DNA of 64,000 bases from Gammaproteobacteria bacterium (lineage in GTDB: Bacteria; Pseudomonadota; Gammaproteobacteria; JAJPIJ01). Every line of letters starts with the position of its first letter. The first letter of the stretch is position 1. A program made the translations under genes and the position numbers. Location: positions 124,001-188,000 of the forward strand of contig JAJVIQ010000004.1 in assembly GCA_022071965.1 (NCBI GenBank), written 5' to 3'. Positions 1,796 to 26,021 of the stretch are shown piece by piece. The notes beneath the pieces were generated by a model, which saw only the letters and a list, made by a program, of their open reading frames with translations, did no database searches and was not told where the DNA came from.

Positions 1796-2620
1796 ATGAA
1801 GCAAGAGAGTCGGGCAGTGTGTGCGCTGCTGTCGGTGTGGCTGACCGCCGGGATGGCCTTGACGTCCGCCGTTCGCGCGGCGGATGCCGACGAGGTCGAG
1901 ATCCTGTTCGTCGGCGACCAGGGCCGCTCCGCGTGGGAGGGCGCCTCCCAGGGCCTGATCGAGGCCAACCTGCAGGGCAAGTTCCTCGGCAAGACCTTCA
2001 GGCTCACCCAGCTCCCGGGGGCCGGGGAGATCCTCAAGGAGTCGAAGCCCGCCGCCGTGGTGGTGGCCGGCGATGCCACCACGCTGCGCCAGGTGGCCGA
2101 CACGCTGCCCGGGGTCCCCGTGTTCAACGTCGGCCTCGATGACGACGCGATACGCCAGCAGTGCGGCGGCAACATCCTGCACGTCCTGCCCAGCCAGGCG
2201 ATGAAGCGCGACGCGCTCTCGCAGTGGAAGACCAAGAACCCCGAGTCCGATGCGCGCGCGCTCGCGTGGCACAGCAGCGCGAAGAAGTACTCCGGCACGC
2301 AGCTCAACGACCGCTACATGAAGTCCTTCGGCAAGCCGATGGATGACGAGGCCTGGGCGGGCTGGGCCGCGGTGAAGATGCTCGCGGATACCGTTGTCCG
2401 AACCCAGAGCAGCGATCCTGGCAAGCTGCTGGATTTCCTGCGCAACGATCTCGAGTTCGACGGCCAGAAGGGCGCGGACATGAGCTACCGCAAGAACGGC
2501 CAGCTTCGACAGCCCATCCTGATCGTGGAGGGCGGCAAGGTGGTCGGCGAGGCGCCGGTCGTGGGCGTCGCGCAGAGCATCGAGGACCTCGACAGCCTCG
2601 GCAATGTCGAGTGCAAATAG
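1796..2620 (+). CDS. Periplasmic binding protein of PQQ alcohol-oxidation systems (copy 1)
   Basis: The protein has 274 residues with a signal peptide of about 29 residues ending in VRAA. AGAGGAGG at 1783-1790 sets the start. The mature part has the look of a periplasmic binding protein of the branched-chain amino-acid/ABC type and matches the family known from PQQ-dependent alcohol dehydrogenase systems, often found with a YVTN propeller protein. Landmarks are PVFNVGLDDD near 110-119, LHVLPSQAMK, WAGWAAVKML near 190, and LEFDGQKGADM near 220. No ABC permease or ATPase is adjacent. A lipoprotein propeller gene follows 52 nt downstream, then xoxF. A paralogue lies at 10221-11069. The ligand is unknown. 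An alcohol, a metal chelate or a scaffolding role for the dehydrogenase are all possible. Confidence 0.8.
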   Translation: MKQESRAVCALLSVWLTAGMALTSAVRAADADEVEILFVGDQGRSAWEGASQGLIEANLQGKFLGKTFRLTQLPGAGEILKESKPAAVVVAGDATTLRQVADTLPGVPVFNVGLDDDAIRQQCGGNILHVLPSQAMKRDALSQWKTKNPESDARALAWHSSAKKYSGTQLNDRYMKSFGKPMDDEAWAGWAAVKMLADTVVRTQSSDPGKLLDFLRNDLEFDGQKGADMSYRKNGQLRQPILIVEGGKVVGEAPVVGVAQSIEDLDSLGNVECK

Positions 2621-2672: not shown

Positions 2673-3830
2673 ATGAAGAGACTCACCCTGGCAGTGCTGA
2701 TGCTCGCCGCGCTTTCGGCGTGCTCGGAGAAGAAGCAACCGGAATCGGCGGCCACCGGGCCGGCCGAGACCCAGCAGGCCGCGCCCGCGGCGACGGAGGC
2801 CCCGGCCTCGGCACCGGAGGCATCCGCGGCCACAGCGCCGGCGACCTCTGCCGCAGAGACACAGGCATCCGCGGCCGCGGCGCCGGAGACGTCCGCGGCA
2901 GAGACCCAGGCCGCCGCTGCTCCGGCTGCCGCCGGCGGGCCTACTGGCCGCGTCTTCGTGACCAATGAGAAGGGCAATTCCGTCTCCGTCATCGATCCGG
3001 CGACCAATGCGGTCATCGGCACCATCGACGTCGGCATCCAGCCGCGCGGCATCGGCAAGTCACCCGACGGCAGCGAGATCTACGTGGCGCTCGGCGAGGA
3101 GGGGAAGATCGCGGTCATCGATCCGAAGGAGATGAAGCTGGTGCGCAAGTTCGATTCGGGCCCGGATCCGGAGGCCTTCGGCGTGCACCCCGATGGCAAC
3201 ATCTACATCTCGATGGAGAACGACGCCAAGGCGGCGGTGTACAACCCGAAGACCGGCGAGCAGATTGCGCTCGTGGACGTCGGCCTGGAACCGGAGGGCG
3301 TGGCGGTGTCGCCGGACGGCAGCAAGGTCATCGTCACCAGCGAATCCACCAACATGCTGCACGTGATCTCCGTGCCCGATCACAAGCTCGTCGCCAACAT
3401 CCTGGTCGGCTCGCGGCCGCGCGCCGCGACCTTCTCCAAGGATGGCAAGTGGGCCTATGCCTCGGCGGAGATTGGCGGTGAGGTCAAGCGCGTGGACATG
3501 ACGACCTACAAGGTCGACAAGGTCACCTCGATCGGCGAGGAGGATGCCAAGCCGAAGGACGTAATGCTGAGCAACGATCAGAAGACGCTGTACGTGGCCG
3601 GTGGACGCGCCAACAAGATCTTCATCTTCGATGCGGAGAGCATGGCGCTCAAGGGCAGCATTCCGGTCGGCAACCGTGTATGGGGTCTGGCGCTGAGCAA
3701 GGACGGCAGCCGCCTCTACACCACCGACGGCGGCAGCGATCAGATCTCGGTGATCGATACGGCGAAGAACGAGGTCATCGCGACCATCCCGGTCGGCAAG
3801 GCCCCCTGGGGCGTGGTCGTCGACGATTAG
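2673..3830 (+). CDS. YVTN-repeat beta-propeller lipoprotein, PQQ-catabolism associated
   Basis: The protein has 385 residues. The start at 2673 is chosen because it gives a lipoprotein signal (MKRLTLAVLMLAALSAC, lipobox LSAC) and has an ACGAGGAG site 10 nt upstream; an upstream in-frame ATG at 2604 overlaps the previous gene. After the cysteine comes a low-complexity Ala/Glu/Thr/Pro linker to about residue 90, built from repeats of ETQA- and SAA-like units. Then comes a propeller of repeats of the form GSEIYVALGEEGKIAVIDP, VAVSPDGSKVIVTSES and GLALSKDGSRLYTTDGGSD, ending with VPVGKAPWGVVVDD-like sequence. The family occurs with PQQ-dependent alcohol-oxidation operons. It is probably anchored at a membrane face in the periplasm and may be a partner of the binding protein upstream or of the dehydrogenase. 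Function is not established. Confidence 0.85.
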   Translation: MKRLTLAVLMLAALSACSEKKQPESAATGPAETQQAAPAATEAPASAPEASAATAPATSAAETQASAAAAPETSAAETQAAAAPAAAGGPTGRVFVTNEKGNSVSVIDPATNAVIGTIDVGIQPRGIGKSPDGSEIYVALGEEGKIAVIDPKEMKLVRKFDSGPDPEAFGVHPDGNIYISMENDAKAAVYNPKTGEQIALVDVGLEPEGVAVSPDGSKVIVTSESTNMLHVISVPDHKLVANILVGSRPRAATFSKDGKWAYASAEIGGEVKRVDMTTYKVDKVTSIGEEDAKPKDVMLSNDQKTLYVAGGRANKIFIFDAESMALKGSIPVGNRVWGLALSKDGSRLYTTDGGSDQISVIDTAKNEVIATIPVGKAPWGVVVDD

Positions 3831-3962: not shown

Positions 3963-3983
3963 GAGGGCGCCACCGGCGCCCTC
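3963..3983. terminator. Stem-loop after the propeller gene
   Basis: GAGGGCGCC-ACC-GGCGCCCTC is a perfect 9-bp stem with a 3-nt loop, 133 nt after the propeller stop. It lacks a clear T-tract, so termination or mRNA stabilisation are both possible. Confidence 0.45.
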
Positions 3984-4061
3984 TACATTCGAGAAAGAAC
4001 TTCAACTCCTGCGAAGAATCGATGATCGTTCAGGCGATTACATCGCCATCTTGATGCCGAA

Positions 4062-4470
4062 TCAGCCGCCGATCTGCGCGCCGGCGCCGAAGAAGCGGTT
4101 GTCGGTGCAGTCCGCATTGGTGACGAAGAGCCCGAATGGTCCGCCGCGGACCTCGCCGAATCGAGCGCTGCGGCGGTCGCGATTGCACGTTGACGGGGTT
4201 ATTCTCCGCCGCCGCGCCCACGTCGATGACGTCGGTTTGCCCGAGACTTTCCGCCTCACTGGCGCCTGCCGTGTCCGGCACGACGGCGAATGCCGGGGCG
4301 AGGCCGCCCACAGCGTGTGCGGCAGGGCATGGTTGAGTGCCGAAACCCAATGAATCCTCCTGCCGTTGTTGCGGTTCCTGATACCGGCAGCGTGTTGTTC
4401 TCGAGCCTGAATCCGGAAGGAAAAAAAGGGAAATTGAGGGCAGGAAGAGGTCCCGGCACGCCTGGGATGT
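4062..4470 (-). pseudogene. Possible decayed exported-protein gene, frame-broken
   Basis: Three minus-strand frames in succession carry protein-like stretches: NNTLPVSGTATTAGGFIGF, then AVGGLAPAFAVVPDTAGASE followed by QTDVIDVGAAAENNPVNV, then GEVRGGPFGLFVTNADCTDN up to a stop near 4062. Joining them needs two frame changes, near 4355 and near 4165. The composition (small residues, Cys pairs) suggests a secreted protein. No family was recognised. Chance or sequencing error are both possible, so this is a weak call. Confidence 0.25.
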
Positions 4471-4967
4471 AACAGCCCGGCGAACCGATGAACCCACGGC
4501 GCACCATCGCCACGTCGCGAGGGTGCAATGTGATTAGTCCGGTCTGGAAAGTGGACCGAATCAGGACAATCCGGAAGTGCATGGGAGGAAAAAAGCCTGT
4601 ACACGATCGGGAAAACATCCCCCTGTGCCCTGTGCATATTGAATAGCCTTCGCGTCTGAATTCTCATAGGCACTCCCGGCCGCGATGGCAGAAAAATTAC
4701 GAATACTCCGGCCCGGGGGTGACCACGAGGGCAGGAATCGCGAAAGCGCATGAGGTCATCAAGCGGAGGAGTCTTACACCGTGGCGCACCTTCGTCCCGT
4801 ATGTCCGCTTTCATTCCGGCGCGAACTTTACGTGTCTGCCTTCCAGGCCGTGCCGCGGTGTTCGAATGACGATCGAGGCGCCCTCATCCTGGGGTGCGGG
4901 GTTTTCCCTTCGTGTCTCGCTGGTCTCCGGGGCGCTTGGGGTCGGCAACGGCAGCGAGATCAATCCA

Positions 4968-5015: not shown

Positions 5016-6905
5016 ATGCCAAGACTTAAGAGCAAATGGGTATTCGCGGCCCTCTCGTTGGCGGTACCGAGTGTGGTATTCGCGAACGAAAGCGTCGAGA
5101 AGCTCATGAAGAACCCGAACTACTGGGCCTTCCCGGGGTTGAACTACTGGAACTGGCGCTACTCCTCGCTGGACCAGATCAACACCTCGAACGTGGACAA
5201 GCTGCAGGTGGCGTGGACGTTCTCCACGGGCCGTCTGCAGGGTCACGAGGGCGGCCCGCTGGTGCTGCCGGCAGAGGCCACGGGCCGTAGCAACGACACG
5301 CTGTACATCCACTCCGCGTTCCCGAACGACGTGTTCGCCATCGATCTGGATACCCTGGAGATCGTGTGGGAATACGATCCGATCCAGGAGGAGAGCGTGC
5401 AGGGCGTGCTGTGCTGCGACAACGTCAACCGTGGTCTGGGCTACGGCGACGGGATGATCTTCCTGCAGCAGAACGACACCACGCTGGTGGCGCTGAAGGC
5501 GGGCACGGGCGAGAAGGTGTGGGAGATCAAGAACGGGGATCCGAAGCTGGGTCAGACCAACACCAACGCCCCGCACGTGATGAAGGACAAGGTGATCACC
5601 GGCATGTCGGGCGCGGAGTTCGGGGTGCGTTGCTGGCTGAACGCCTACAACATCAAGGACGGCTCGCTGGTCTGGCGCGCCTACTCGATGGGCCCGGACG
5701 GCGACATCCTGATGGATCCGGAGAAGACCACCTCGATGCTCAAGCCGGTGGGCAAGGACTCTTCGCTGAAGACCTGGAAGGGCGATCAGTGGAAGATCGG
5801 CGGCGGCTCGACCTGGGGCTGGTGGCCGTACGACAAGGAGGAGAACCTGCTGTACTACGGCACGGGCAACCCCTCGACCTGGAACCCGACGGTTCGTCCG
5901 GGCGACAACAAGTGGTCCATGTCCATCATCGCGCGTGACGTCGACACCGGCATGGCCCGCTGGGCCTACCAGATGACCCCGCACGATGAGTGGGACTACG
6001 ACGGCATCAACGAGATGATCCTCGTGGACATGAAGGTCAAGGGCAAGGACCGCAAGGTCCTGGTGCACTTCGACCGCAACGGCTTCGGCTACACGCTGGA
6101 CCGTGTCACCGGCGAGCTGCTGGTGGCGGAGAAGTTCGACCCGGCGGTGAACTGGGCCACGCACGTGGACATGAAGACCGGCCGTCCGCTGGTGGTGGAG
6201 TCGAAGTCGACGCACTCCGGCGGCGAGGATACCGTCTCCAAGGACATCTGCCCGGCGGCGTTGGGCACCAAGGATCAGCAGCCGGCTGCCTACAGCCCGC
6301 TGACGGGTCTGTTCTATGTGCCGACCAATCACGTTTGCATGACGTATGAGCCTGTCTCCAACCCGCTGTACGAGGCCGGCAAGCCGTACGTGTTTGCGAA
6401 CCTGACGATGTTCCCGGCCGGCAAGGTGTGTACCGCGGCAGGTCCCGCAACCGGCACGCCCGTCACCGCCAACGAATGTGCCAACAACGATACGGCGGAC
6501 AACATGGGCAACTTCATCGCGTGGGATGCCGACGCAGGCAAGATCGTCTGGTCGATCCCGGAGCGGTGGTCGGTGTGGTCGGGCGTTCTGACGACCGCCG
6601 GCGGCATCGCGTTCTACGGCACGCTGGAAGGCTGGGAGAAGGCGGTGGACCAGAAGAGCGGCAAGCTGCTGTGGAAGCACAAGGCGCCCTCGGGCATCAT
6701 CGGCAACACCCACACCTGGGTGCACGGCGGCAGGCAGTACATCGGCGTGCTGTCCGGTATCGGTGGCTGGGCCGGTGCGGTGGTCGCGTTCCGCAAGGAG
6801 AGTACCGCTCCGGATGAGTGGGCGCTCGGCGCGGCCGGCGGTTATCGCGCTCTGAGGAGCGTCTCGAAGAACGGCGGCGTGCTGATGGTCTATGCGCTGC
6901 CGTAA
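5016..6905 (+). CDS. xoxF: XoxF-type PQQ-dependent methanol/alcohol dehydrogenase, predicted lanthanide enzyme
   Basis: The protein has 629 residues with signal peptide 1-23 (ending VVFA) and is exported to the periplasm. It oxidises methanol or another primary alcohol with PQQ and passes electrons to a cytochrome c. Visible features are the vicinal disulfide C133-C134 over [12 protein letters not shown], propeller tryptophan-docking segments, and HDEWDYDG with catalytic Asp327 and a second Asp at 329. In this family an Asp two residues after the catalytic one coordinates a lanthanide; Ca2+ enzymes (MxaF) have Ala there. Length and a C-terminus ending YALP match XoxF rather than two-subunit MxaFI. 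AAAGGAGGAGG lies just upstream of the ATG. No cytochrome xoxG or xoxJ follows; a strong terminator ends the unit. PQQ is presumably supplied by the pqq operon at 24.5-28 kb. Confidence 0.95.
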
Positions 6906-7256
6906 GGTGGCGACGCCGTTTATCTAGTCAGAGGTGCAGGGAATGGAGCCCGGTGGCTGCAACGGCCACCGGGCTCTTTGTTGTCATGATGCCAGGCGAC
7001 CGACCATGCGATGCGGTTGAATCGGCGGCTCGACCGGGTGAAGGCCTGGATTTCGGCATCGCCCGCCGATGCCTGCTCCAATCGGGGTTGACATCACTTT
7101 CAATCGATCACGGCGCGCGGGCACCCTCCATTTTTCCTGAAAACGTATAGGAAAATGTCCCGACGACCCGAAAAAGGGTACCTCGTCCGTCCAGGTCCGG
7201 TAACATCCTGCCCTGCAGTCACAACACTGGTTTCTCAAAAGCATTCGGGGGGAGTC
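6906..7256. other. 351-bp gap between xoxF and the receptor gene
   Basis: It contains the xoxF terminator and then about 270 bp with no gene. The receptor promoter should lie here; AT-richer sequence at 7120-7170 is a candidate but no exact -35/-10 pair is claimed. Confidence 0.5.
6946..6984 (+). terminator. Rho-independent terminator after xoxF
   Basis: A 12-bp stem (GAGCCCGGTGGC at 6946-6957 with GCCACCGGGCTC at 6965-6976) and a 7-nt loop are followed by TTTGTTGT. It lies 40 nt after the xoxF stop and implies a monocistronic end. Confidence 0.85.
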
Positions 7257-9614
7257 ATGATCGCGCCATCCAAAGAGATTCAAATGCTTGCCGCTGTCGG
7301 GGTCGCCACGTGCCTTACGGCCGGCGCCCACGCGCAGGAGGTCGAAGGTCCGTCGCCCACCAAGGAGGTCTCCGCCCTCGAACTGCCAAGCGTCGACGTG
7401 ATCGGCTTCACACCGCTGCCCTCCGTGGGCATGCCGATCGAGAAGTTCGCCGGCAACGTGCAGTCGATAACGTCGGAGGAGATCGAGAACCAGAACCCGG
7501 TCGACCTTTCAGAGGCGCTGTACCGCAATCTCGGCAGCGTCAACATCAATTCTGCCCAGAACAATCCCTGGCAGAACGACGTGACCTATCGCGGCTTCCT
7601 TGCCTCGCCGCTGACAGGCAGCCCGATCGGGCTGTCGGTCTATGTCGACGGCATGCGGTTCAACGACGGCTTCGGGGACACGCTGAGCTGGGACCTGATC
7701 CCGCAGTCCGCGATCTCCAGCATCGACGTGATCCCCGGCTCCAACCCGCTGTTCGGTCTGAATACGCTGGGCGGTGCGCTGGCGGTACGTACCAAGAGCG
7801 GCTTCGCCTACCAGGGCACCGAGGTCGAGCTGCAGGGCGGCTCCTTCGGGCGCTGGGGACTGGAGGCCGAGCACGGCGGCTACAAGGGGCCGATCGATTA
7901 CTACATGACCTTCAACGGAATGCAGGAGGACGGCTGGCGCGATGCCTCCGGTTCCGAGCTGCGCCAGTTCTTCGGCAAGGCCGGGTGGGAAAACGATCGC
8001 ACGGACGTGGACCTGAGCTACATCTACGCCAACAACGACCTGACTGGCAATGGCTATGCGCCCGAGAGTCTCCTGGCGCTCGACCGCAGCGCGGTGCACA
8101 CGTTCCCCGACAACACGCTCAATGAGCAGCACCTCGTCAACCTCAGCGCCAGCCACGAGCTGACGAAGGATCTGTTGCTCGCCGGAAATGCGTATTACCG
8201 CGACTACCAGCGCGACACGCTCAATGGCGATGCCGAGGTGACATGCGTGAACGACCTGACGGACGAGGAGGTGTTCACGGATGCAGGTGGCGAGGATGCC
8301 CTGCCGGTGAGCCTGTGCTCGGGCTCCGCGGCCGGCTTCTTCGATGCGGACGGCAACGCGCTGCTCGGCGCTCTGGAGCGCGACACCGAGGGCGAGGACC
8401 GCACCACCAGCACGGAGTCCGAGACCTGGGGCGGCACGCTGCAGCTTTCCCGCCAGGGTCAACTGTTCGGCCACGGCAATTCCGCGACGATCGGGTTCGC
8501 CTATGACCAGACCGACAGCCGCTTCACGCAGAGCGAACGCGAGGGCGACATCGTCGATGTCGGCAACTCGCGCACCATCATCGGGGAGGGTGCGTTCGAG
8601 ACAGAGGTCGATGTCGATACCTCGCAGGAGGACATCGGTTTCTATCTCACCGACACCTTCGACATCACCGAGCGACTGGCGCTGACGCTGTCCGGCCGCT
8701 ATCAGCACGTCAATGTCGAGATCAGCGATAACACCGGCGATCCGGAGAACGCCGATGTCAACGGCGACCACAGCTTCGATCGCTTCAATCCGGCGGCCGG
8801 CCTGACCTTCCAGCTGATGCCGAAGATGACCGTGTTCGGCTCCTACAGCGAGGGCTTCCGCGCCCCGACCGCCGCGGAGCTGACCTGCGCGGATCCGGAC
8901 GATCCCTGCAACCTGCCCAACGCCTTCGTGGCCGATCCTCCGCTCGATCCGGTGGTCGCGAAGACCTACGAATTCGGCGCCCGCGGGCATCTGCCGGTCG
9001 GCGATGCGCTGCGCTGGAACGCCGCGTTCTTCCGCACTGATCTCTCCGACGACATCCTGTTCACCGTGGTCGAGACCGGCGGCGCCGGCTTCTTCCAGAA
9101 TGTCGGCGAGACGCGGCGTCAGGGCGTCGAGGTCGGTGCGATCGGCAGCGTGAAGAAGCTCAACTATTTCCTGAGCTATGCCTTCGTGGACGCCACCTAC
9201 GAGTCGGCGGAGACGCTGGCGAGCTTCGTCGATGCCGCCGGCGTGCCGGTGGAGGAGGGCGACAGCATCCCCGGCATTCCGCAGCACAACTTCAGGGTCG
9301 GGGCCGAGTACGAGGTGTACACGAATTTCTGGCTCGGCGGCGACGTGATCGCCGCCTCGAGCACCTACCTGCGCGGCGACGACGGCAACAACCTGCCCGA
9401 GGTGGACGGCTATGCCATCCTCAACCTGCAGGCCCGCTACGCGCCGAGCAAACATTTCGAGTTGTGGGGACGCATCGACAACGTGACCGATGCCGACTAC
9501 GAGACCGCGGGCATCCGCAACTTCAACGCCTTCGCCGACCCGATTGCCGAGGAGCGCTTCCTCGCGCCTGGAGCGCCGCTCGCGGGCTGGTTCGGGGTCA
9601 AGGCGCGTTTCTGA
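7257..9614 (+). CDS. TonB-dependent outer-membrane receptor
   Basis: The protein has 785 residues. The ATG at 7257 follows GGGGGGAG and opens a signal peptide ending in GAHAQ. After a short linker with a possible TonB box (SVDVIGF), a plug domain runs to about residue 190, with VDGMRFNDGFGDTLSWDLIP and SIDVIPGSNPLFGLNTLGGA as its hallmarks. A long beta-barrel follows, ending in a terminal phenylalanine (WFGVKARF), as outer-membrane barrels do. The sequence FGSYSEGFRAPTAAELTC near 535-555 is typical of siderophore-type receptors. It sits directly after xoxF and ahead of a TonB2-like energising operon. By analogy with lanthanide-linked receptors of methylotrophs and with PQQ receptors it may import a lanthanide chelate or PQQ. 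That is inference; iron or cobalamin chelates remain possible. Confidence 0.9.
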   Translation: MIAPSKEIQMLAAVGVATCLTAGAHAQEVEGPSPTKEVSALELPSVDVIGFTPLPSVGMPIEKFAGNVQSITSEEIENQNPVDLSEALYRNLGSVNINSAQNNPWQNDVTYRGFLASPLTGSPIGLSVYVDGMRFNDGFGDTLSWDLIPQSAISSIDVIPGSNPLFGLNTLGGALAVRTKSGFAYQGTEVELQGGSFGRWGLEAEHGGYKGPIDYYMTFNGMQEDGWRDASGSELRQFFGKAGWENDRTDVDLSYIYANNDLTGNGYAPESLLALDRSAVHTFPDNTLNEQHLVNLSASHELTKDLLLAGNAYYRDYQRDTLNGDAEVTCVNDLTDEEVFTDAGGEDALPVSLCSGSAAGFFDADGNALLGALERDTEGEDRTTSTESETWGGTLQLSRQGQLFGHGNSATIGFAYDQTDSRFTQSEREGDIVDVGNSRTIIGEGAFETEVDVDTSQEDIGFYLTDTFDITERLALTLSGRYQHVNVEISDNTGDPENADVNGDHSFDRFNPAAGLTFQLMPKMTVFGSYSEGFRAPTAAELTCADPDDPCNLPNAFVADPPLDPVVAKTYEFGARGHLPVGDALRWNAAFFRTDLSDDILFTVVETGGAGFFQNVGETRRQGVEVGAIGSVKKLNYFLSYAFVDATYESAETLASFVDAAGVPVEEGDSIPGIPQHNFRVGAEYEVYTNFWLGGDVIAASSTYLRGDDGNNLPEVDGYAILNLQARYAPSKHFELWGRIDNVTDADYETAGIRNFNAFADPIAEERFLAPGAPLAGWFGVKARF

Positions 9615-10074: not shown

Positions 10075-10140
10075 GTAGGAGCGGCTTCAGCCGCGAACGG
10101 GCCTCGGCGGTGCGTCATTCGCGGCTGAAGCCGCTCGCAC
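10075..10140. repeat. REPIN-like pair of inverted REP elements
   Basis: GTAGGAGCGGCTTCAGCCGC at 10075-10094 (continuing GA to 10096) and its inverted partner at 10119-10140 flank 22 nt, so the whole 66-nt unit can fold as one long hairpin. Each REP is itself palindromic (GCGGCT/AGCCGC). Related copies are at 11248, 11298, 12418 and 15441. This sequence class is widespread in Pseudomonas- and Xanthomonas-like genomes and is mobilised by RAYT transposases. None is encoded in this window. Confidence 0.8.
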
Positions 10141-10220: not shown

Positions 10221-11069
10221 CTACTGCTGCGCCGTCTGCCGCGGCGCCGGGCAGTGCGCGCGTCCGAGGCTGTCGAGATCCTCGGCGGTGGTTACGCCGC
10301 GCACCGGCGCCTCGCCGACGATCTCTTCTCCCTTCACCAACAGCAGGACCTGACGCAATTGACCGTTCGCGCGGAAGTTCATCGTCACGCCCTTCTGTCC
10401 GTCGAACTCGAGATCGGACTTGAGATACTTCAGAAGGGCGCCGGCGTCGGCAGTGCCGGTGCGCGCGACCGAATCGGTGAGCATCTTCGTGGCGGCCCAT
10501 CCTGCCCAGGCGTAGTCGTCCATGCCTTGGTCGAAGGCCCTGGTGAAGCGGTCGTTGAGCTGTCGGCCGGCGTATTTCTCGAACTCCGGGTGCCAGGCGC
10601 GGGCCTCGACCGCATCGCCGGGGTTCTTCGTCTGCCACTGCACGATCGCATCGCTGCGCATCTTCTCGTCGGGGATGACGTGCAGCAGGTTGGCGAGGCA
10701 CAGTGCGCGCAGATCTTCCGTCTCCTCGACGAGGTTGAACACCGGCACGCCCGGGTTGAGCTCGCTCAGAAGGCGCAGACTCCCGGCATCGACGGCGGCA
10801 AAGATCGCGCTCGGCGCCGGATCCTTGATGGTGACGATGTGCTCGTCGGGCAGGACCTCCAGCAGATATCTCTGGCCGAGAAATTGTCCTTGCTGGTTGC
10901 CTTCCGCGACACCTTGCGATACGCCAAGCAGCGCCGAATGCTCGTCGTCGCCGATGTATGCGAGGTGGACCTCGAGCGCAGCAGGCGTCTCCGTGGCATG
11001 CGTGGAGCGGACGGCGGCATTCAGGGACAGTACGGCAGCGGCGCACAACAGCAGGCGGATTAGGATCAT
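10221..11069 (-). CDS. Periplasmic binding protein of PQQ alcohol-oxidation systems (copy 2)
   Basis: The protein has 282 residues. The ATG at 11069 follows GGGGAG and gives a signal peptide ending THA. It aligns along its length with the protein at 1796-2620: LLHVIPDEKMRSDAIVQW corresponds to ILHVLPSQAMKRDALSQW, and WAGWAATKMLTDSVARTG and LEFDGQKGVTMNFRANGQL are shared nearly word for word. A short Pro/Gln tail extends the C-terminus. It is transcribed toward the receptor gene, stands alone, and has no ABC permease or ATPase beside it. Two diverged copies flanking xoxF and the receptor suggest that both bind ligands or partners of the same alcohol-oxidation process with different specificity. 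Confidence 0.8.
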   Translation of the reverse strand: MILIRLLLCAAAVLSLNAAVRSTHATETPAALEVHLAYIGDDEHSALLGVSQGVAEGNQQGQFLGQRYLLEVLPDEHIVTIKDPAPSAIFAAVDAGSLRLLSELNPGVPVFNLVEETEDLRALCLANLLHVIPDEKMRSDAIVQWQTKNPGDAVEARAWHPEFEKYAGRQLNDRFTRAFDQGMDDYAWAGWAATKMLTDSVARTGTADAGALLKYLKSDLEFDGQKGVTMNFRANGQLRQVLLLVKGEEIVGEAPVRGVTTAEDLDSLGRAHCPAPRQTAQQ

Positions 11070-11823
11070 GGCGCGACTCCCCGGTGGCGCGGGACGCAAG
11101 GGCCCGGCAATGGCGGGATGCTAGCAACGATGGCGGCCCGGACCCTACGGAAACCGGACTGATCTTGCGCGTGATAATTGACCGTAATGTACCGGGAGCT
11201 TGTCGCGTGGCAGCGGGAGATTATCCTGTGCCGGCGCCGGCGCCGATGGGAGCGACTACAGCCGCGAAAGGCGGGCGGGAGGGGAGCCGACATCCGCGGG
11301 GACGACTTCGGCCGCGAGAGGCACATGGTACGAAGGTCGATCGCGGCAGCAGCCGTTCCTGCGGTCGCTGCAGAACAGTCGCGCCTTCCTGCCGCGCGGC
11401 GGCGCATGCCGAACAGGATCCACGCCAACGCAGCGATCAGCAGCCACGCGCACGACCGACTCCGGCTTGCAGTGGCGTACGGACACGCCGGGCACCGGCG
11501 CGCTGGGCGGCATCCTTATGCCGGGCATCGAGGCGGGTGACGTCCAGGATCTGACGAGCGAGCCCGCGCAGCTCGGCTCGGGGCTGAGCCTTGGGTTCCT
11601 CGATGCGGGCACGCCTCACGGGCCGCGGCGGTCGCTGGCGAGGCGACCATCGACCTGCGAAGAGGGGCCAGGGTTCGGACTCGCCCGTGCCACTGCTGCC
11701 GGGCGTCTCCACGCCCGCGATTCCGTCAATGCCGCCGCGTTAGTCCCCGGCATGCGAAAGCGCACGGGACGAGGCCCGAAGTCGGGGGCGACGGCCCGTC
11801 CTGCGAGCCCGAAATCGCGAGGA
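11070..11823. other. 754-bp intergenic region without a supported gene
   Basis: It holds the two degenerate REP elements. Several open frames exist on both strands, but none has a ribosome site, a signal or a recognisable domain, and composition does not favour any frame. It may contain decayed coding sequence. Confidence 0.5.
11248..11317 (+). repeat. Two degenerate REP elements
   Basis: GGGAGCGACTACAGCCGCGA at 11248-11267 and GGGGACGACTTCGGCCGCGA at 11298-11317 are direct, diverged relatives of the REP at 10075. They lie upstream of the second binding-protein gene. Confidence 0.65.
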
Positions 11824-12336
11824 CTATTCGAAGCCCACCTGCCAGAGCTCGTGATCGGCCTCGATGATCTCGCCCGTGGCAGCATCGATCTCGACCTTGG
11901 TTTGTGTGCCGTCGCCGGCGGCAATGTCGAATTCGTAGGACGCGCTGCCGCTTTCCTCGATCTCGTATTCGACTTCTTCGATCTCGCCGGGGTATTGCTG
12001 GGTCAGGATCCGGCGCGCCTGCGATTCGCTGATCTTCGCCTGCGCGGCGAAGAGCGGATCGGCGACGCTGTCGACCTCACGCTCGACGCTGACGATCGTC
12101 GCCGCGTCGGCGTCGCATTCCACGTCCCAGGCCTTGCCGTCGCTGTCCATGATGTCGAACTCGTAGGCCTTGCGCGCGTCGACGGTCTTGAATTCGACCT
12201 TTATCACGCGTCCGGCCTTGTGCTCCAGGGCGACGCCGAGGCAGTCCTCGAACGGGCGGGCGCCGCGTTCGACGGTCGCCGCGACGGCGAGAGACGTCAC
12301 GAACATGGTTGCTACGACAACAATTGGTCTTGCCAA
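11824..12336 (-). CDS. Exported PepSY-domain protein
   Basis: The protein has 170 residues. A TTG at 12336 is chosen as start because AAGGAG (12345-12350) stands 8 nt upstream and translation then opens a clean signal peptide (MARPIVVVATMFVTSLAVAA). Two PepSY-like repeats follow: one around 30-85 (GRVIKVEFKTVDARKAYEFD) and one around 95-165, with AQAKISESQARRILTQQYPG and the terminal KVEIDAATGEIIEADHE typical of PepSY. The protein is very acidic. PepSY domains occur in periplasmic protease inhibitors and in proteins associated with histidine kinases. Here it lies 126 nt downstream of, and in the same direction as, a two-component pair, so a sensory or protective accessory role is plausible. 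Confidence 0.75.
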   Translation of the reverse strand: MARPIVVVATMFVTSLAVAATVERGARPFEDCLGVALEHKAGRVIKVEFKTVDARKAYEFDIMDSDGKAWDVECDADAATIVSVEREVDSVADPLFAAQAKISESQARRILTQQYPGEIEEVEYEIEESGSASYEFDIAAGDGTQTKVEIDAATGEIIEADHELWQVGFE

Positions 12337-12417
12337 TTCAAATTCTCCTTCTCGAAACATCAGGGGTCGCATCGCGCCAGGCGGCCGGGCAGAAACACCG
12401 GCGGTCGCGAGCGCCGC

Positions 12418-12439: not shown

Positions 12440-12461
12440 AGAACGGGGCGCGCGCTGCGGC

Positions 12462-13124
12462 TCAGACCTTGACGACGCCATGACGGATGGCGATGCGCGC
12501 CAGCTCGGCAACGGTGTCGACGTCGAGCTTGTTCTTGATCTGCGTGCTGTAGTTGGCGACGGTCTTGTAGCTGAGGCTCAAGCGCTTGGAGATGTCGTTG
12601 ACGTTCAGGCCCTCGGCGAGCAGGCAGAAGATCTCGAACTCGCGCGTCGACAGCGACTCGAACGGCGTGTTGCGTCCGCGCGTCTTCTGGAACGCGAGCC
12701 GCTGCGCGATCTCGGCATCGAGGAAGATGTCGCCCTGGGCGATACGGCGCACGGCGTCGACGAGCACCTCCGGGGCGCTGCTCTTGGTGATGTAGCCACG
12801 CGCGCCCGCCTGCAGCGCCTGCTCCACGAATACCGTGTCCTCGTGCATGCTGAACACGAGGATCCTGGCATCCGGATCGCGGGCGATGATGCGCCGGATC
12901 GCCTCGAGCCCGCCGATGCCGGGCAACGAGAGATCCATGATGACGACGTCGGGCCGCCTGTCGATGTACTCGCGCAGCGCGGCCTGGCCGTTGTCGGCCT
13001 CGGCGATCACCTCGAGGTTGGCGGCATTCTGCAGCAGCGTGCTGTAACCCGTGCGCACCACCGCGTGATCGTCGACCAGCAGGATACGGATCGGTCGTGC
13101 GCGTTCCTCAACCTTGTCGGACAT
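12462..13124 (-). CDS. NarL/LuxR-family response regulator
   Basis: The protein has 220 residues. The receiver domain spans about 12-130 with the acidic pair D18-D19, phospho-acceptor D64 (VVIMDLSLPG) and K114. A LuxR-type helix-turn-helix follows at about 155-205 (LSTREFEIFCLLAEGLNVND, SLSYKTVANY). It binds DNA after phosphorylation by a HisKA_3 kinase, here the kinase encoded immediately upstream, whose reading frame overlaps its start by 17 nt (co-transcription). Regulators of this class (for example AgmR/ErbR in pseudomonads) control PQQ alcohol-oxidation genes, so control of xoxF or the binding-protein genes is a reasonable inference. Confidence 0.92.
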   Translation of the reverse strand: MSDKVEERARPIRILLVDDHAVVRTGYSTLLQNAANLEVIAEADNGQAALREYIDRRPDVVIMDLSLPGIGGLEAIRRIIARDPDARILVFSMHEDTVFVEQALQAGARGYITKSSAPEVLVDAVRRIAQGDIFLDAEIAQRLAFQKTRGRNTPFESLSTREFEIFCLLAEGLNVNDISKRLSLSYKTVANYSTQIKNKLDVDTVAELARIAIRHGVVKV

Positions 13125-14475
13125 GTCTGGATTCTCCGGAGATTGGCAAGCTGATTTGAATGGTGACGCCCTTGCCCGGCGTGCTGGTGAGCTCGAAGTG
13201 GCCGTTCAGCGCCTCGGCGCGTTCGCGCATGCCGAGCAGGCCGAGCCCGGAGGGCGTTTGCAGCGGATCGAAGCCGCCGCCGTTGTCGCTGATGGCGATG
13301 CGCAGCCATGGCGCCGGCGTCGGGTCGGCGGGCGTCGTGCGCGTGAGGCTGATGGAGACATCGGTCGCGTGCGCGTGCTTGCTGATGTTGGTCAGCGCCT
13401 CCTGGACGATCCGAAACACGTTGATGCGCGCCTCGTCGTTGAGATCGGAGAATTCGCCCTCGCTGTCGAAGCGGCAGAAGGCCTCACCGTGGCGGTCGTT
13501 CCATTCGTCGATGATGTTCTGCAGCGCCGGCACGAGTCCGAGTTCATCCAGGATCACCGGCCGCAGCCGCCGCATCATGCCGCGCACGACATCGTAGATG
13601 CGCTGCGAGGTGTTGCTGATGGTCTGCGTGCTTTGCAGGATCTCGGGCTCGTTGGCGGCACGCTGGCCGATGGTGACCGCGAGCGCCTTGATGGCGCTGA
13701 TCGACTGGCCAAGCTCGTCGTGCAGCTCGTGGGCGAGGTAGCGCCGTTCCTGCTCCTGGATCGCGAGCGATCGCTGCGCGAGCGCGCGGTTCTGCGCCCG
13801 GCTGCGCTCGAGCACCTCGGCCATGTGGTTGAACTTTTCGACGATGACGTTCAGCTCGGGCAACGTGATGTGCGGCAGGCGCGAGCGGTAGTCGCCGCGC
13901 TCGATGTTGTCGAGCGCCATCAGGATGCTGCTGATCGGTTTCAGCGATCGACCTATCGTCACGTAGACGAGGCAGTTCGCGAGCAGGCAGAAGACCACGA
14001 GCAGACCGAGCATGTTGCGCGCCTCGCTCCATGCTTCAGTGATCTCGTCGGCCGGATCGGCCTCGATCACGACCAGCAGGCCGTAGTTGTCCTGAGTCGG
14101 TGCGATGTTTCGGGTCAGCTTCAGCGGCGGCGGCTCGACGAGCTGCACGAACCAGCCCGGCGCAGCGGGGCTGCGCGAGATCGATGTCTCCGGAAAACCC
14201 GACTCGCGCGTGCCGTCGGGCCGCAGCAGATCAATGTGCAGATGACGGGTTTCCTCGAAGCGGGCAAGGTGCGCGAGGATGGCCGGCAGCGCGCTCGCCT
14301 CGGGACCACTGCGCCCGAGGGCCACCTCGAGCAGATTGAGGGTCAGGTTCGCCGTCGAGCGCGTCTCCTCCTCGACGGCGCCCCGCGCATGGTGAATCAC
14401 GAGCAGTGCCCCCGCTCCGAGGATGAGCAGGAACATAATCGTGATCAGCAGGTTCAAACGGAAACGTAGGCTCAT
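13108..14475 (-). CDS. Membrane sensor histidine kinase (HisKA_3 type)
   Basis: The protein has 455 residues. TM1 is about 8-28, the periplasmic sensor 30-150 and TM2 about 155-175. A HAMP segment runs to about 230, followed by a dimerisation/phospho-acceptor helix with H252 in AHELHDELGQ and a GHKL ATPase domain with DNGGGFD near 400 and GLGLLGMRER. The short periplasmic domain has no recognised fold; its ligand is unknown. The gene is followed by its cognate NarL-type regulator with overlapping frames and is divergent from the TonB2-like operon (146 nt to that start). Upstream position relative to that operon and downstream PQQ-linked genes make it a candidate sensor for alcohol, lanthanide or envelope state. 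Confidence 0.9.
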   Translation of the reverse strand: MSLRFRLNLLITIMFLLILGAGALLVIHHARGAVEEETRSTANLTLNLLEVALGRSGPEASALPAILAHLARFEETRHLHIDLLRPDGTRESGFPETSISRSPAAPGWFVQLVEPPPLKLTRNIAPTQDNYGLLVVIEADPADEITEAWSEARNMLGLLVVFCLLANCLVYVTIGRSLKPISSILMALDNIERGDYRSRLPHITLPELNVIVEKFNHMAEVLERSRAQNRALAQRSLAIQEQERRYLAHELHDELGQSISAIKALAVTIGQRAANEPEILQSTQTISNTSQRIYDVVRGMMRRLRPVILDELGLVPALQNIIDEWNDRHGEAFCRFDSEGEFSDLNDEARINVFRIVQEALTNISKHAHATDVSISLTRTTPADPTPAPWLRIAISDNGGGFDPLQTPSGLGLLGMRERAEALNGHFELTSTPGKGVTIQISLPISGESRHVRQG

Positions 14476-14621
14476 GATCAGGTCTCGCGCCGCGGCGCTT
14501 GAACGACGAGAACACTATGAATACCATGCTCCGTCTTTCCTTGCCGGGGCAGGAGATTATGTCTTTCATTCTAAATGGTATTTTCAGCTGCTGTATCCGG
14601 GATAAAGTTCCCGTCGCCGGC

Positions 14622-15404
14622 ATGAAATATTCCTCCCTGCACGGGTGGGTGTTGGCGGGATGCTGGCTGCTCGCGCCGCTCGCCCTGGCGCAGGACAAGG
14701 TTGAAACCACTCTCGAAGCCGCCGCCGCCGCCAATCAGGAGGCCGCCGCCGCGCAGCAGCGGATCGACACGCTCGCGACCGACACCAGATCGATGCTCGA
14801 GGAATACCGCCAGGTCGTGGCCCGTAGCGAGGACCTCAAGGCCTACAACGACCAGGTCGAACGAATGCTCGAGACCCAGAGCGGCGAGCTGGCGGCGCTC
14901 GCCGAGCAGACCCGTCCGAACGCCGTCACCAAGGAGAAGCTGCTGCCGCTGCTGCAGAAGATGGTCGACACGCTCGGCCAGTTCGTGAAGATGGACACGC
15001 CGTTCCTCGCGGAGGAACGCGCCACGCGCGTCAAGGAACTCGAGCATCTCATCGACATGCCCGACGTCGGTCTGTCCGAGAAATACCGCCGGGTCATGGA
15101 GGCCTACCAGGTCGAGGCCGAGTACGGCCGCACGATCGAGGCATACAGCGGCTCGCTGCCCGGCGCCGGTGCCGAGGGCGCCAGGGGCCGCACCGTGAAT
15201 TTCCTGCGCGTCGGACGCATGGGGCTGTACTACGCCACTCTCGACGGCGGCGAAAGTGGCTACTGGGACGGCGCGGCAAAGGCCTTCAAGCCGTTGCCGC
15301 CGGCGTTCAATCGCGAGATCGATCATGGCCTGAAGATCGCCCGCAAGGAGTCGGCGCCCGATCTGCTCAAGGTGCCGCTGCCGGCCCCGGAGGTCGTCCA
15401 ATGA
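14622..15404 (+). CDS. DUF3450 periplasmic protein of a TonB2-type system
   Basis: The protein has 260 residues. The ATG at 14622 opens a signal peptide ending LALAQ; in-frame starts upstream (14499) only add non-signal sequence. The mature protein is a long alpha-helical coiled coil (about 30-110, rich in Ala/Glu/Gln) followed by a conserved region with GRMGLYYATLDGGESGYWDG. This matches DUF3450, the first gene of TonB2 clusters in Vibrio and Shewanella. It probably interacts with the inner-membrane TtpC/ExbB complex. It overlaps the next gene by 4 nt (ATGA), and five further genes follow in the same direction. Confidence 0.85.
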   Translation: MKYSSLHGWVLAGCWLLAPLALAQDKVETTLEAAAAANQEAAAAQQRIDTLATDTRSMLEEYRQVVARSEDLKAYNDQVERMLETQSGELAALAEQTRPNAVTKEKLLPLLQKMVDTLGQFVKMDTPFLAEERATRVKELEHLIDMPDVGLSEKYRRVMEAYQVEAEYGRTIEAYSGSLPGAGAEGARGRTVNFLRVGRMGLYYATLDGGESGYWDGAAKAFKPLPPAFNREIDHGLKIARKESAPDLLKVPLPAPEVVQ

Positions 15405-16939
15405 GCCAGGCGGGTACGCAGTGCCGTGCCGCATCAGCAGGTGGGAGCGGCTCCGGCCGCGAACGGACGCCAGCGCCGTTCCTCCGATTCCCGGCGGCAG
15501 ACGCCCCCACCGGGCACCGGGCAGCGACGGCGCGGTGGCCGCGTGCCGCCTTGGCGGCGTTCGCGATGGCCCTTGGCTTGAGCGGCAGCGCCCAGGCCGG
15601 CGCGGCCGCCAAGTCGCTCGACGACCTGCTCTCGACGATCATCGCCGATCAGCAGGCCGCGCGGCAGCGTGATGCCGAGCGCGAGAAGGAATTCGTTGCG
15701 GCGCGCGATCAGCAGGCGGCCCTGCTCGAGCAGGCCAAGGCCCAGCTCGCCGCCGAACAGGCGCGCGCGGATCAGCTCAAGGCGCAGTTCGAGAGCAACG
15801 AAAGCACAATCGTCAGCCAGAGCGCCGCCACCGACGCCGCCGACGGCGAGCTCGCGGACTTCGACGCCGTGGTTCGCCAGGTGGCCACCGACATGAAGAG
15901 CATGCTCGACGCCTCGCTGGTCTCGGCGCAGATCCCCCAGCGCCTCGCCTTCGTCGACAGGCTCGTCAGGAGCGAGGACAAGCCGACGATCGACGACGTG
16001 CAGCAGCTCTGGCAGATCCTGTTCGAGGAGATCATCCAGTCCGGCAAGGTGGCGCAGTTCAAGACCAACGTCATCTCGGCCCAGGGCAAGGACGAGGCGC
16101 GCGTGGTCACGCGCCTGGGCGTGTTCACGGCCACCTCCAATGGCGATTTCCTGCGCTATGCGCCGGAGGTTCATCGGCTCGTCGAGCAGGCGCGCCAACC
16201 ACCCGGGCAGTACCGCCGCATGGCCAGGGCGCTCGAGCAGGCCAAGGAGGGCATGACGATGGTGGCCTTCGATCCCACCCGCGGCTCGATGCTCGCCATA
16301 CTTTCGCAGGAGCCGACGATCTGGGAGCGCATCAAGCAGGCCAAGCTCGTCGGCTTCGTGACGCTCGGCCTCGGCGGCATCGCGATCGTGATCGCGCTGT
16401 GGCGCTTTTTCAGGCTCACGGTGATCGAGCGCGCGGTGGCGCGCCAGCGCCAGAGCACCGAACCCGACACCGGCAATCCTCTCGGCCGGGTCATGAAGGC
16501 ATTCACCGACAACCGCAGCGTCGATTCCGAGACGCTCGAGCGCAAGCTCGACGACGCCATCCTGCGCGAGTTGCCGCCGATCCAGCGCGGCCTCGGCGCG
16601 CTGCTCGTGATCGCCGAGGCGGCGCCGCTGCTCGGCCTGCTCGGCACGGTCAGCGGCATGGTCGCGACCTTCCAGGCCCTGAGCATGTTCGGCGCCGGCG
16701 ATGCCAAGGTGGTGGCCGGCGGCATCTCCGAGGCGCTCGTGGCGACGATCATCGGCCTGTGCGTCGCGATCCCGGCGCTGGTCGTGCACAGCTTCCTCAA
16801 GAGCAAGAGCGACCGCATCGTGCAGGTGCTCGACGAGCAGGCCGCGGGCATGGTCGCGCGCATGGCCGAGGCGCACCTGCGCGTCCGGCAGAAGCTCGCG
16901 GGGCAGAATGCCGCGAACCGCGCGGCAGTCGCCAACTAG
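15401..16939 (+). CDS. TtpC-like long ExbB/TolQ-family proton channel protein
   Basis: The protein has 512 residues. After an N-terminal region comes a signal-like hydrophobic stretch (about 47-66), a periplasmic coiled coil (about 70-145), and a MotA/TolQ/ExbB domain with TM near 323-345 and two more TM helices around 395-460 (GLLGTVSGMVATFQAL, VATIIGLCVAIPALVVHSFL). TtpC is the extra subunit of TonB2 complexes and is needed with ExbB2/ExbD2 to energise receptors. The first 46 residues are odd: bases 15441-15462 are a REP element read in frame (SGSGRERTP), so the N-terminus was extended or altered by repeat insertion. A later start is possible, but none has a good site. It overlaps the DUF3450 gene (ATGA) and is followed 18 nt later by exbB. 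Confidence 0.85.
   Translation: MSQAGTQCRAASAGGSGSGRERTPAPFLRFPAADAPTGHRAATARWPRAALAAFAMALGLSGSAQAGAAAKSLDDLLSTIIADQQAARQRDAEREKEFVAARDQQAALLEQAKAQLAAEQARADQLKAQFESNESTIVSQSAATDAADGELADFDAVVRQVATDMKSMLDASLVSAQIPQRLAFVDRLVRSEDKPTIDDVQQLWQILFEEIIQSGKVAQFKTNVISAQGKDEARVVTRLGVFTATSNGDFLRYAPEVHRLVEQARQPPGQYRRMARALEQAKEGMTMVAFDPTRGSMLAILSQEPTIWERIKQAKLVGFVTLGLGGIAIVIALWRFFRLTVIERAVARQRQSTEPDTGNPLGRVMKAFTDNRSVDSETLERKLDDAILRELPPIQRGLGALLVIAEAAPLLGLLGTVSGMVATFQALSMFGAGDAKVVAGGISEALVATIIGLCVAIPALVVHSFLKSKSDRIVQVLDEQAAGMVARMAEAHLRVRQKLAGQNAANRAAVAN
15441..15462 (+). repeat. REP element inside a coding sequence
   Basis: GTGGGAGCGGCTCCGGCCGC (15441-15460, then GA) is a variant of the REP at 10075 with a compensated stem. 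It is translated in frame as part of the TtpC-like protein. Confidence 0.75.
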
Positions 16940-16957
16940 ACCGCGGAGCGCGCAGCC

Positions 16958-17518
16958 GTGGAATTCCTGGCCGACTATCACGAGCATTTCCTGAACTTTC
17001 TGGATCGCGGCGGGCCGGTGATCATCACGATTATCTGCACTTCGGTGCTGATGTGGTTGCTCATCATCGAACGCTACTGGTTCTTCTACCGCGAGTTCCC
17101 GCTCAGGGCGCGCGCGGCGCTGGCGGCCTGGCAGGCGCGCGAGGACCGCCGCTCGTGGTACGCGCGGCGTGTCCGCGAGGAACTGGTCGGCCATGCCTCG
17201 GAGGAGCTGCAGAAGAACCTGCCGCTCATCAGGGCTCTGGTGACGGTGCTGCCGTTCCTGGGCCTGCTCGGGACCGTCAGCGGCATGATCACGACCTTCG
17301 AGGTGTTGCGCGTCTTCGGCACCGACAATGCCCGCGGCGTGACCGCCGGCATCGCCGAGGCCCTGTTCACGACCCTGGCGGGCCTGTTGACGGCGCTGTC
17401 GGGGCTGTATTTCAGCGTGCATCTCAACCGGCACGCGGAGTACGAGCGGCAGACGCTGCTCGATGAGCTCGTCATCGACGACCCGGCGCACGTGCCGACG
17501 GTCCGCAGTCACGTTTGA
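16958..17518 (+). CDS. exbB: ExbB/TolQ-family proton channel subunit
   Basis: The protein has 186 residues and a GTG start 18 nt after the upstream stop. TM1 is about 20-38 (IITIICTSVLMWLLIIERYW), a cytoplasmic loop follows, then the signature LPFLGLLGTVSGMITTFEVL near 100-120 and a third TM around 135-155 (LFTTLAGLLTALSGLYFSV). It forms the inner-membrane proton channel that drives TonB. The length is typical of short ExbB2 proteins, with the larger TtpC-like homologue encoded directly upstream. Its partners are exbD and tonB immediately downstream. Confidence 0.92.
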   Translation: MEFLADYHEHFLNFLDRGGPVIITIICTSVLMWLLIIERYWFFYREFPLRARAALAAWQAREDRRSWYARRVREELVGHASEELQKNLPLIRALVTVLPFLGLLGTVSGMITTFEVLRVFGTDNARGVTAGIAEALFTTLAGLLTALSGLYFSVHLNRHAEYERQTLLDELVIDDPAHVPTVRSHV

Positions 17519-17533
17519 CAGGAGGCGCGTTCA

Positions 17534-17953
17534 ATGCGTCGCAGGCATTCCTCGGGCAGTGAATCGATGGCGCGCATCAACGTCGTGCCGCTGGTCGATG
17601 TCATGGTGTTCCTGCTGATCTTCTTCGTCTCGACGGCGTCGTTCCTGAAGGAAGCCGGCATCGAGGTCAATCGCCCGATCGCGCAGACGGTCGCCAAGCA
17701 GGAGAAGGGCAACATCATCATCGCCATCAGCAAGGACGGGGAGATCTGGCTCGACAAGCGCCAGCTCGACATCCGCATGGTCCGGCCGACGGTTGAGCGA
17801 ATGCACGCCGAGAATCCCGAGGGCTCGGTGATCATCGTCGCCGACCGAGAGGCGGCGACGGGCACCACGGTACAGGTCATGGACCAGGTGCGCCTGGCCG
17901 GTATCGCCAATGTCTCGATCGCCGCCAGCCGGGAGGGTGGTGGCGCGAACTGA
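17534..17953 (+). CDS. exbD: ExbD/TolR-family protein
   Basis: The protein has 139 residues. AGGAGG-like sequence (17520-17525) precedes the ATG by 8 nt. It has a short cytoplasmic N-terminus, one TM helix (about 18-38, VVPLVDVMVFLLIFFVSTAS) containing the essential Asp (D22), and a periplasmic domain of beta/alpha character (IIIAISKDGEIWLDKRQLD, VIIVADREAATG). It couples proton flow through ExbB to TonB movement. It is fifteen bases from exbB and 14 bases from tonB. Confidence 0.93.
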   Translation: MRRRHSSGSESMARINVVPLVDVMVFLLIFFVSTASFLKEAGIEVNRPIAQTVAKQEKGNIIIAISKDGEIWLDKRQLDIRMVRPTVERMHAENPEGSVIIVADREAATGTTVQVMDQVRLAGIANVSIAASREGGGAN

Positions 17954-17967
17954 AAGGCCCCGGGGCG

Positions 17968-18741
17968 ATGTCACGCACATTGAGCATGCTGCGCTACCCC
18001 TCGAGCCTCGCGCTCGCGATCGTCGTCAACGTGCTGCTGATGATGTTCGTGATCCGGCTGGTGACCGGAGAGCGCGAGAAGCTCGGCGCCCCGCCCGAGG
18101 ACGTCACCGTCATCGACTTCGTGCGCCTGCTGCGCGACAGCGCCCCCGTGCAGAGCAACCGCCGCCAGGAACTGCCGGAACTCATCGAGACCATCCGGCC
18201 GCCGACCCCCGAGCAGCCGCCCGAGGAGGTCGAGCCGCCACCCGAACCCGAGGTGCGCATGATCACGCCCGAGCTCGCGCCGCCGCTGAATCTCACGAAC
18301 GCGCCGCAGCTGCCCGCCGTGACGCCGCCCAGGGAGGCGCCGAAGGCCGTCGACGCGCCCGTGGCCGTGCAGCAGGCGCCGGCCCTTCCGGTCAAACCCG
18401 CGCCCGCGCCGAGCGGTGGCGGCAAGCCCGGCCCGGAGGCGGCCGGCAGCGACGAGCCGGTCTTCGATCGCGCCCTCGTGGCGATCTCCAAGCCCGATCC
18501 GAAATACCCGCCGCGGGCATTGCGCGCCGGCATCGAGGGCGTGGTCACGATCGAGTTCATCGTCACGCCCGATGGCAAGGTCCGCGACCCGAGGATCATC
18601 AGGGCCAACCCGCCCGACATCTTCGACGATGCGGCGAAGGAGGGCGTGCTGCGCTGGAAGTTCAAGCCAAAGGTGGTCGACGGCAAGGCGATCACGCGCC
18701 GCGCCCGCCTCGACATCAATTTCAAGCTCAGGAAGGGGTGA
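17968..18741 (+). CDS. tonB: TonB energy transducer
   Basis: The protein has 257 residues. N-terminal TM anchor (about 10-30); proline/glutamate-rich spanning region (about 65-150, PPTPEQPPEEVEPPPEPEV); and a C-terminal TonB domain (about 170-255) with YPPRALRAGIEGVVTIEFIV and DGKVRDPRIIRANPPDIFDD. It contacts the TonB box of outer-membrane receptors, most simply the receptor at 7257-9614, which has no other TonB in this window. It is part of the DUF3450-TtpC-ExbB-ExbD-TonB-TPR operon. Confidence 0.93.
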   Translation: MSRTLSMLRYPSSLALAIVVNVLLMMFVIRLVTGEREKLGAPPEDVTVIDFVRLLRDSAPVQSNRRQELPELIETIRPPTPEQPPEEVEPPPEPEVRMITPELAPPLNLTNAPQLPAVTPPREAPKAVDAPVAVQQAPALPVKPAPAPSGGGKPGPEAAGSDEPVFDRALVAISKPDPKYPPRALRAGIEGVVTIEFIVTPDGKVRDPRIIRANPPDIFDDAAKEGVLRWKFKPKVVDGKAITRRARLDINFKLRKG

Positions 18742-18745
18742 TGCC

Positions 18746-25723: not shown

Positions 25724-26000
25724 GGGCAATCTCCACGAAGGCGTATACGTCGTTGTCGAGCTCGACGCCGGGATACGCCCGTTTCAGGTCGGAAATGATC
25801 TCGGCAACGCTGCGCGTGCCGTCGATGCGCTTCATGATCTCCGCGGAACTGCTGTTCAGCTTGATCATGCCTTCCGGATAGAGGATGACCCAGCAGTTCT
25901 GCGCCTCTTCCCACTGCAGGCGCTTGCCGGGCACGACTTGCGGGACACTGTCCGCGCCGTACACTTTCCCCGATGGTTTGATCTCTTTCGCTTCAGCCAT
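25686..26000 (-). CDS. pqqD: PqqD, PqqA-binding chaperone
   Basis: The protein has 104 residues. It is a small winged-helix-like peptide chaperone that presents PqqA to PqqE. The core (about 24-100) carries [37 protein letters not shown] and a C-terminal IAHEQQWI. The N-terminal 20 residues extend a little beyond shorter homologues. It overlaps pqqE and starts 21 nt after the pqqC stop. Confidence 0.96.
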
Positions 26001-26021
26001 GTCGGTCCGCCTGTGCGGGGT

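Follow-up and report, generated by a model that had tools for sequence, protein, structure and literature searches.

The TonB-dependent receptor encoded beside xoxF in the gammaproteobacterial DNA analysed here (a stretch of 64,000 nucleotides, hereafter the window) is a member of the LutH family of TonB-dependent receptors and, as judged from its sequence and gene context, probably imports chelated rare-earth metal for the lanthanide-dependent methanol dehydrogenase XoxF. The preliminary description of this DNA had proposed import of either a lanthanophore or PQQ. The lanthanide half of that proposal is borne out by LutH phylogeny, a shared loop motif and the lanthanide/PQQ neighbourhood of the receptor's relatives; the PQQ half is contradicted by absent signature residues, a position outside the PqqU clade, a separate PqqU-type receptor and the genome's own PQQ biosynthesis genes. 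Clustering with an iron or B12 receptor clade accompanied by a Fur box, the outcome named there as speaking against the proposal, was looked for and not observed.

A receptor of the LutH family

The receptor ORF is complete at 785 aa, initiating at an ATG with a GGGGGAG ribosome-binding site just upstream and containing plug (PF07715) and barrel (PF00593) domains that both score far over cut-off. In the sequence as read, LPSVDVIG resembles a TonB box, and a signalling domain at the N-terminus is lacking. A sigma-70 promoter scan returned nothing above chance. An AlphaFold2 model built from 49 aligned sequences adopts the full TonB-dependent receptor fold (pTM 0.85; pLDDT in Table 1), and all matches in a structure comparison of this model were TonB-dependent receptors. 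It is one of nine barrel hits in the genome.

LutH references were obtained by using lanmodulin to find genomes and taking the adjoining receptor in loci L166, L168 and L176, such that they are identified from their location, with ABC genes on one side and lanM on the other, and not from the named AM1 sequence. In L168, members of TIGR03863, TIGR03866 and TIGR03864 scoring above cut-offs are followed by the receptor and then LanM, an order in agreement with the published lut arrangement of Methylorubrum extorquens AM1, in which LutH is required for lanthanide uptake and is repressed by excess La (PMC7391723). A further, named anchor for the family is the member on Methylobacterium nodulans plasmid pMNOD02, which adjoins an EF-hand protein 68% identical to LanM and has mxa genes near it.

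The window receptor aligned with the LanM-adjacent receptors at 395, 375 and 325 bits over 667–782 aa, the best alignment covering the whole receptor length at 34% identity, against 86 bits for PqqU, 46 for BtuB, 46 for CirA and about 45 for Fiu among the E. coli receptors. In a maximum-likelihood tree, the window receptor, LutH and their gammaproteobacterial relatives form one clade (support 100/100, stem 1.08), with PqqU, FecA, FhuA/FhuE/Fiu and FepA/CirA/BtuB all placed outside it. The motif ELxCxxPxxPCxLPNxxxADPPL, containing two invariant cysteines, is common to the window receptor and LutH, residues E541, C544, C551 and D560 being invariant in this region. Clade and Cys-loop motif are joined by a link to a lanthanide-dependent PQQ dehydrogenase and a lanthanide-binding-type protein, the features by which family membership was assessed. 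The LutH bit scores, the clade and the shared motif each argue for lanthanide as the substrate.

The 34% identity to LutH, together with the position of the window group on a branch of the clade separate from LutH, indicates that the substrate may have shifted. It is nevertheless unlikely that the receptor, while of the LutH family, now takes up a different small molecule linked to the oxidation of alcohols by quinoproteins, such as a derivative of an aromatic alcohol or a chelate of some other metal. Such a shift would be consistent with the separate branching and with the breadth of the family, which includes the non-methylotrophs Burkholderia and Paraburkholderia, but the loop motif and invariant residues are as in LutH, and the receptor is found close to xoxF and a LanPepSY homologue here as LutH is to LanM.

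Genes around the receptor and in related genomes

The receptor gene follows straight after xoxF, as the preliminary description had it, and also precedes a TonB2-like operon, located 5 kb further on with four opposite-strand genes (10221–14475) intervening (Table 1). The xoxF product matched the solved structures 6DAM (837 bits) and 6OC5 (782 bits), both named XoxF, with others scoring 609 bits or less, and it carries the lanthanide-site Asp. xoxF and the receptor gene are probably not one operon, as they are separated by 350 bases and the strong terminator. No cytochrome c (xoxG-like) gene was detected beside xoxF, CxxCH ORFs occurring in the window only near 31.7 and 60.5 kb. The lanthanide Asp is present in three PQQ dehydrogenases of the genome, and no such enzyme with the MxaF motif was seen. 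Lanthanide supply would therefore matter to this organism, which favours a lanthanide substrate for the receptor.

Table 1. Features of the window that bear on the receptor (coordinates are window positions).
Feature	Position	Strand	Evidence
LutA/PedA-like substrate-binding protein (SBP)	1796..2620	+	TIGR03863 155 bits, below cut-off 414
TIGR03866 YVTN beta-propeller protein of the type in lut/ped clusters	2676..3830	+	311 bits, above cut-off 287
Decayed relic, second LutH-family receptor and upstream region	3963..4680	-	Collinear DNA fragments, genus-mate comparison
xoxF, XoxF5-like lanthanide-dependent methanol dehydrogenase	5016..6905	+	6DAM/6OC5 match; HDEWDYDG metal site
Strong intrinsic terminator after xoxF	6945..6977	+	15-pair stem and T-rich tail
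LutH-family TonB-dependent receptor	7257..9614	+	Pfam plug and barrel; LanM-adjacent receptors 34%/395 bits; clade 100/100; AF2 pLDDT 85.9
Second LutA/PedA-like substrate-binding protein	10221..11099	-	TIGR03863 130 bits; 48% to L071 genus-mate SBP
Two-PepSY acidic exported protein, LanPepSY homologue	11824..12372	-	PF03413, 2 stretches
LuxR-type response regulator	12462..13124	-	PF00072 and PF00196
Histidine kinase, LapD/MoxY periplasmic domain	13108..14475	-	PF16448, PF07730, PF02518
TonB2-type energiser operon: DUF3450, ExbB-like, ExbB2, ExbD, TonB, TPR	14595..19969	+	Domain and family searches
PQQ biosynthesis genes pqqE, pqqC, pqqB	24545..27727	-	TIGR02109 564 bits; PF03070; PF12706

The minus-strand gene at 11824–12372 encodes a 182-aa exported protein of about 19 kDa with two PepSY domains, which is 43% identical to the one protein it matched in a genome of Methylobacillus flagellatus, assigned as LanPepSY on the basis of being that single match. 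Combined with this homologue, the LutA/LutD-like genes and the energiser in the window, and similar neighbours in related genomes, point to lanthanide import. A LanPepSY homologue also lies directly beside a LutH-family receptor in Methylophaga (L095, L103, L152, L157) and in other genomes. A short inverted, REP-like repeat, CGTAGGAGCGGCTTCAGCCGCGAACG with its near reverse complement, is located at 10076–10140, just before the end of the second SBP gene.

The locus between the YVTN gene and xoxF contains the relic of a second receptor of the same family, represented by fragments (E 3e-22 to 2e-5) with ~1.7 kb deleted and an in-frame stop in the C-terminal piece. In a genus-mate (L071/L101), in which the flanks of the xoxF locus are 87–88% identical to the window at the DNA level, the order is SBP, YVTN, receptor (minus strand) and xoxF, with an intact receptor at the place of the relic. 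This receptor shares about 41% identity with the window receptor and belongs to another branch of the LutH clade, and nothing closer to the window receptor was detected in the genus-mate. Combined, these results indicate that one family member decayed and another now stands at the other side of xoxF, either through exchange or because one of two redundant receptors was lost. On either account xoxF retains a neighbouring receptor of LutH type, and the genus-mate's use of a different family member at the same locus further supports lanthanide as the substrate.

Relatives of the receptor were detected in 35 of 369 genomes of the class. Named methylotrophs carrying relatives are Methylophaga, Methylobacter, Methylophilus, Methylobacillus and Candidatus Methylomirabilis, the last providing the closest named relative (64–66%), encoded beside a PQQ alcohol dehydrogenase gene and a YVTN gene; this context, and the many methylotrophs among the named hits, are in keeping with a lanthanide substrate. 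Neighbourhoods were compared between 28 class loci with flanks of up to about 10 kb, the window itself being left out of the count, and 38 control loci round other TonB-dependent receptors, largely of the same genomes, from which two PqqU loci had been dropped. At least one lanthanide/PQQ marker (PQQ dehydrogenase, TIGR03866 propeller, LutA-like SBP, LanPepSY homologue, pqq gene or PqqU) was present at 16 of the 28 relative loci versus a single control locus (1/38; Fisher p 5e-7), a value to be read with the markers having been picked from the window and the related genomes not being independent.

Other window genes recur at the same loci. The kinase was found near relatives in 13/28 cases and the regulator likewise in 13/28, compared with 0/38 controls for either, and a TonB2 operon in 4/28 compared with 0/38. 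At four loci (L070, L102, L135 and L137) the gene order is PqqU, MoxY-type kinase, LuxR regulator and LutH-type receptor, and at two others (L074, L129) PqqU and LutH-type receptor genes are at most a few kb apart. Glu occupies position 274 in five of the six PqqU proteins found near a LutH-type gene, a variant proposed to bind metal along with PQQ (PMC12124388).

PQQ, iron and haem as alternative substrates

Adjacency to a PQQ enzyme gene raises the alternative of a PqqU/YncD-type receptor importing the XoxF cofactor itself, and PqqU is indeed the nearest solved structure by both sequence and fold. This ranking says little, as no LutH-type structure is among the matches; the scores of many siderophore receptors are close to that of PqqU, making the structure comparison non-discriminating. 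The PqqU signature consists of aromatic-99, R304 and R365 in E. coli numbering (PMC12124388). Among 15 PqqU homologues, one of them encoded in the same genome, aromatic-99 and R365 are present in all and R304 in most, with T or K in a few, whereas the E. coli Y99/R304/R365 are replaced by T/Y/F in the window receptor and LutH has T/Q/A, F and F at these sites. The PQQ-receptor model NF041535 matches weakly, at 136 bits versus a cut-off of 1200, a threshold also missed by the PqqU-like receptors of sampled class genomes (311–658 bits), and the window receptor falls outside the 100/100 PqqU clade. A PqqU-clade receptor is encoded elsewhere in the same genome (C7:141042-143030; locus L046/L184), scoring 342 bits to E. 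coli PqqU and 446 bits to NF041535 and possessing F99/R304/R365 with Glu at 274. Thus, the genome appears to keep lanthanide and PQQ import in two receptors. It also encodes PQQ biosynthesis (Table 1), and a second PqqE over the curated cut-off (507 bits) is located at C11:95810-96835. With signature residues, model score, tree and the search of its own genome all against it, PQQ import by the window receptor was rejected as highly improbable.

An iron(III)-siderophore or haem receptor standing by xoxF by chance is likewise improbable. The best NCBIfam score was obtained with the siderophore model TIGR01783, at 158 bits, but this is under the cut-off of 223.5, and the tree places the receptor outside the groups of the E. 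coli iron receptors FhuA, FepA, FecA, CirA and Fiu. No match to the 19-bp Fur box consensus with three or fewer mismatches was found in the 64-kb window, a weak test outside enterics in which diverged boxes could be missed. Chance placement also sits poorly with the marker frequencies given above, 16/28 against 1/38 for other receptors. Dual use is possible, lanthanide and iron chelates being alike.

Several results do count against lanthanide import. Nothing in the genome reaches the curated cut-offs for the LutE/LutF ABC transporter (TIGR03864 best 179 bits versus 302; TIGR03861 37 versus 241), and LanM gave no match at E 1e-15, such that a complete lut cluster, comprising LutE/LutF and LanM, is absent. 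A search of the genome for an aerobactin-like IucA/IucC pathway of lanthanophore synthesis found none, and the occurrence of family members in Burkholderia and Paraburkholderia weighs on the same side.

A candidate import route and its known counterparts

Import of chelated lanthanide remains our preferred reading, and the window genes suggest how it could proceed. A lanthanide held on a small chelator, whether a lanthanophore, citrate or similar, would be captured by the receptor at the cell surface and released into the periplasm by the force of TonB, ExbB and ExbD, the energiser probably being the TonB2-type complex encoded nearby. The LanPepSY-like protein would serve as a periplasmic lanthanide buffer or carrier, passing metal to XoxF, which would be assembled with lanthanide and with PQQ derived from the cell's own pqq genes. 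Expression is probably tuned to lanthanide or methanol supply by the MoxY-type kinase and LuxR pair. Import may stop in the periplasm, as the curated LutE/LutF ABC is lacking and the SBPs of the locus score under the TIGR03863 cut-off. The genome retains two LutA/PedA-like SBPs while having no LutE/LutF parts at curated cut-offs; these SBPs may be periplasmic carriers.

A broader and more tentative suggestion is that the window represents one version of a modular island that handles both halves of the XoxF cofactor, in which a LutH-type receptor is accompanied by a dedicated TonB2 energiser and by a sensor pair of MoxY type but by no ABC importer, with metal kept periplasmic and the receptor slot at xoxF exchangeable within the family. 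The relic points to the exchangeable slot. In related genomes a kinase/regulator pair of this kind lies between PqqU and LutH-type genes, most of these PqqU having Glu-274.

Genetic knowledge of how lanthanides pass the outer membrane is limited to a few methylotrophs. The locus brings together a receptor, an energiser, a periplasmic carrier and an enzyme, in their predicted roles, in an uncultured gammaproteobacterial lineage. Near quinoproteins, the Cys-loop motif combined with absence of the PqqU residues may provide a sequence rule for separating lanthanide-type from PQQ-type receptors, and the ABC-less arrangement would allow a test of whether there is any requirement for lanthanide in the cytoplasm.

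Compared with known systems, the receptor shares its fold and a PQQ-related gene context with E. coli PqqU/YncD (PMC12124388, PDB 9C4O; TM 0.73/0.85, 20% identity), but lacks the three PQQ-binding signature residues, lies outside the PqqU clade and coexists with a separate PqqU-type receptor. Lanthanide uptake or the lanthanide switch reportedly requires the TonB-dependent receptors LanA of Methylotuvimicrobium buryatense and CQW49_RS02145 of Methylosinus trichosporium OB3b (PMC12482762), and their likeness to the window receptor, compared by description only, is that of TonB-dependent receptors tied to lanthanides. The protein at 11824–12372 is homologous to LanPepSY of M. flagellatus (PMC11845868, PMC12482762), metal binding by the window protein being putative; its gene lies within 2.3 kb of the receptor gene here, whereas the distance is about 90 kb in the M. 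flagellatus genome. The nearest counterpart is LutH of AM1 (PMC7391723), with which the receptor shares clade, full-length similarity and Cys-loop motif, and also its company, namely a LutA-like SBP, a TIGR03866 propeller, a lanthanide-binding-type periplasmic protein and a lanthanide-dependent PQQ dehydrogenase. In contrast to LutH, to which it is 34% identical, the window receptor adjoins xoxF itself and a TonB2 energiser, a LanPepSY homologue stands where the LutH cluster has LanM, and the genome is without the LutEF ABC transporter at curated cut-offs. The receptor itself is therefore best read as a new member of the LutH family within an unusual, ABC-less periplasmic set-up, the less ordinary features being the xoxF and TonB2 setting, the nearby LanPepSY homologue, the lack of an ABC transporter, the decayed second receptor gene, and the order of PqqU, kinase, regulator and LutH in relatives.
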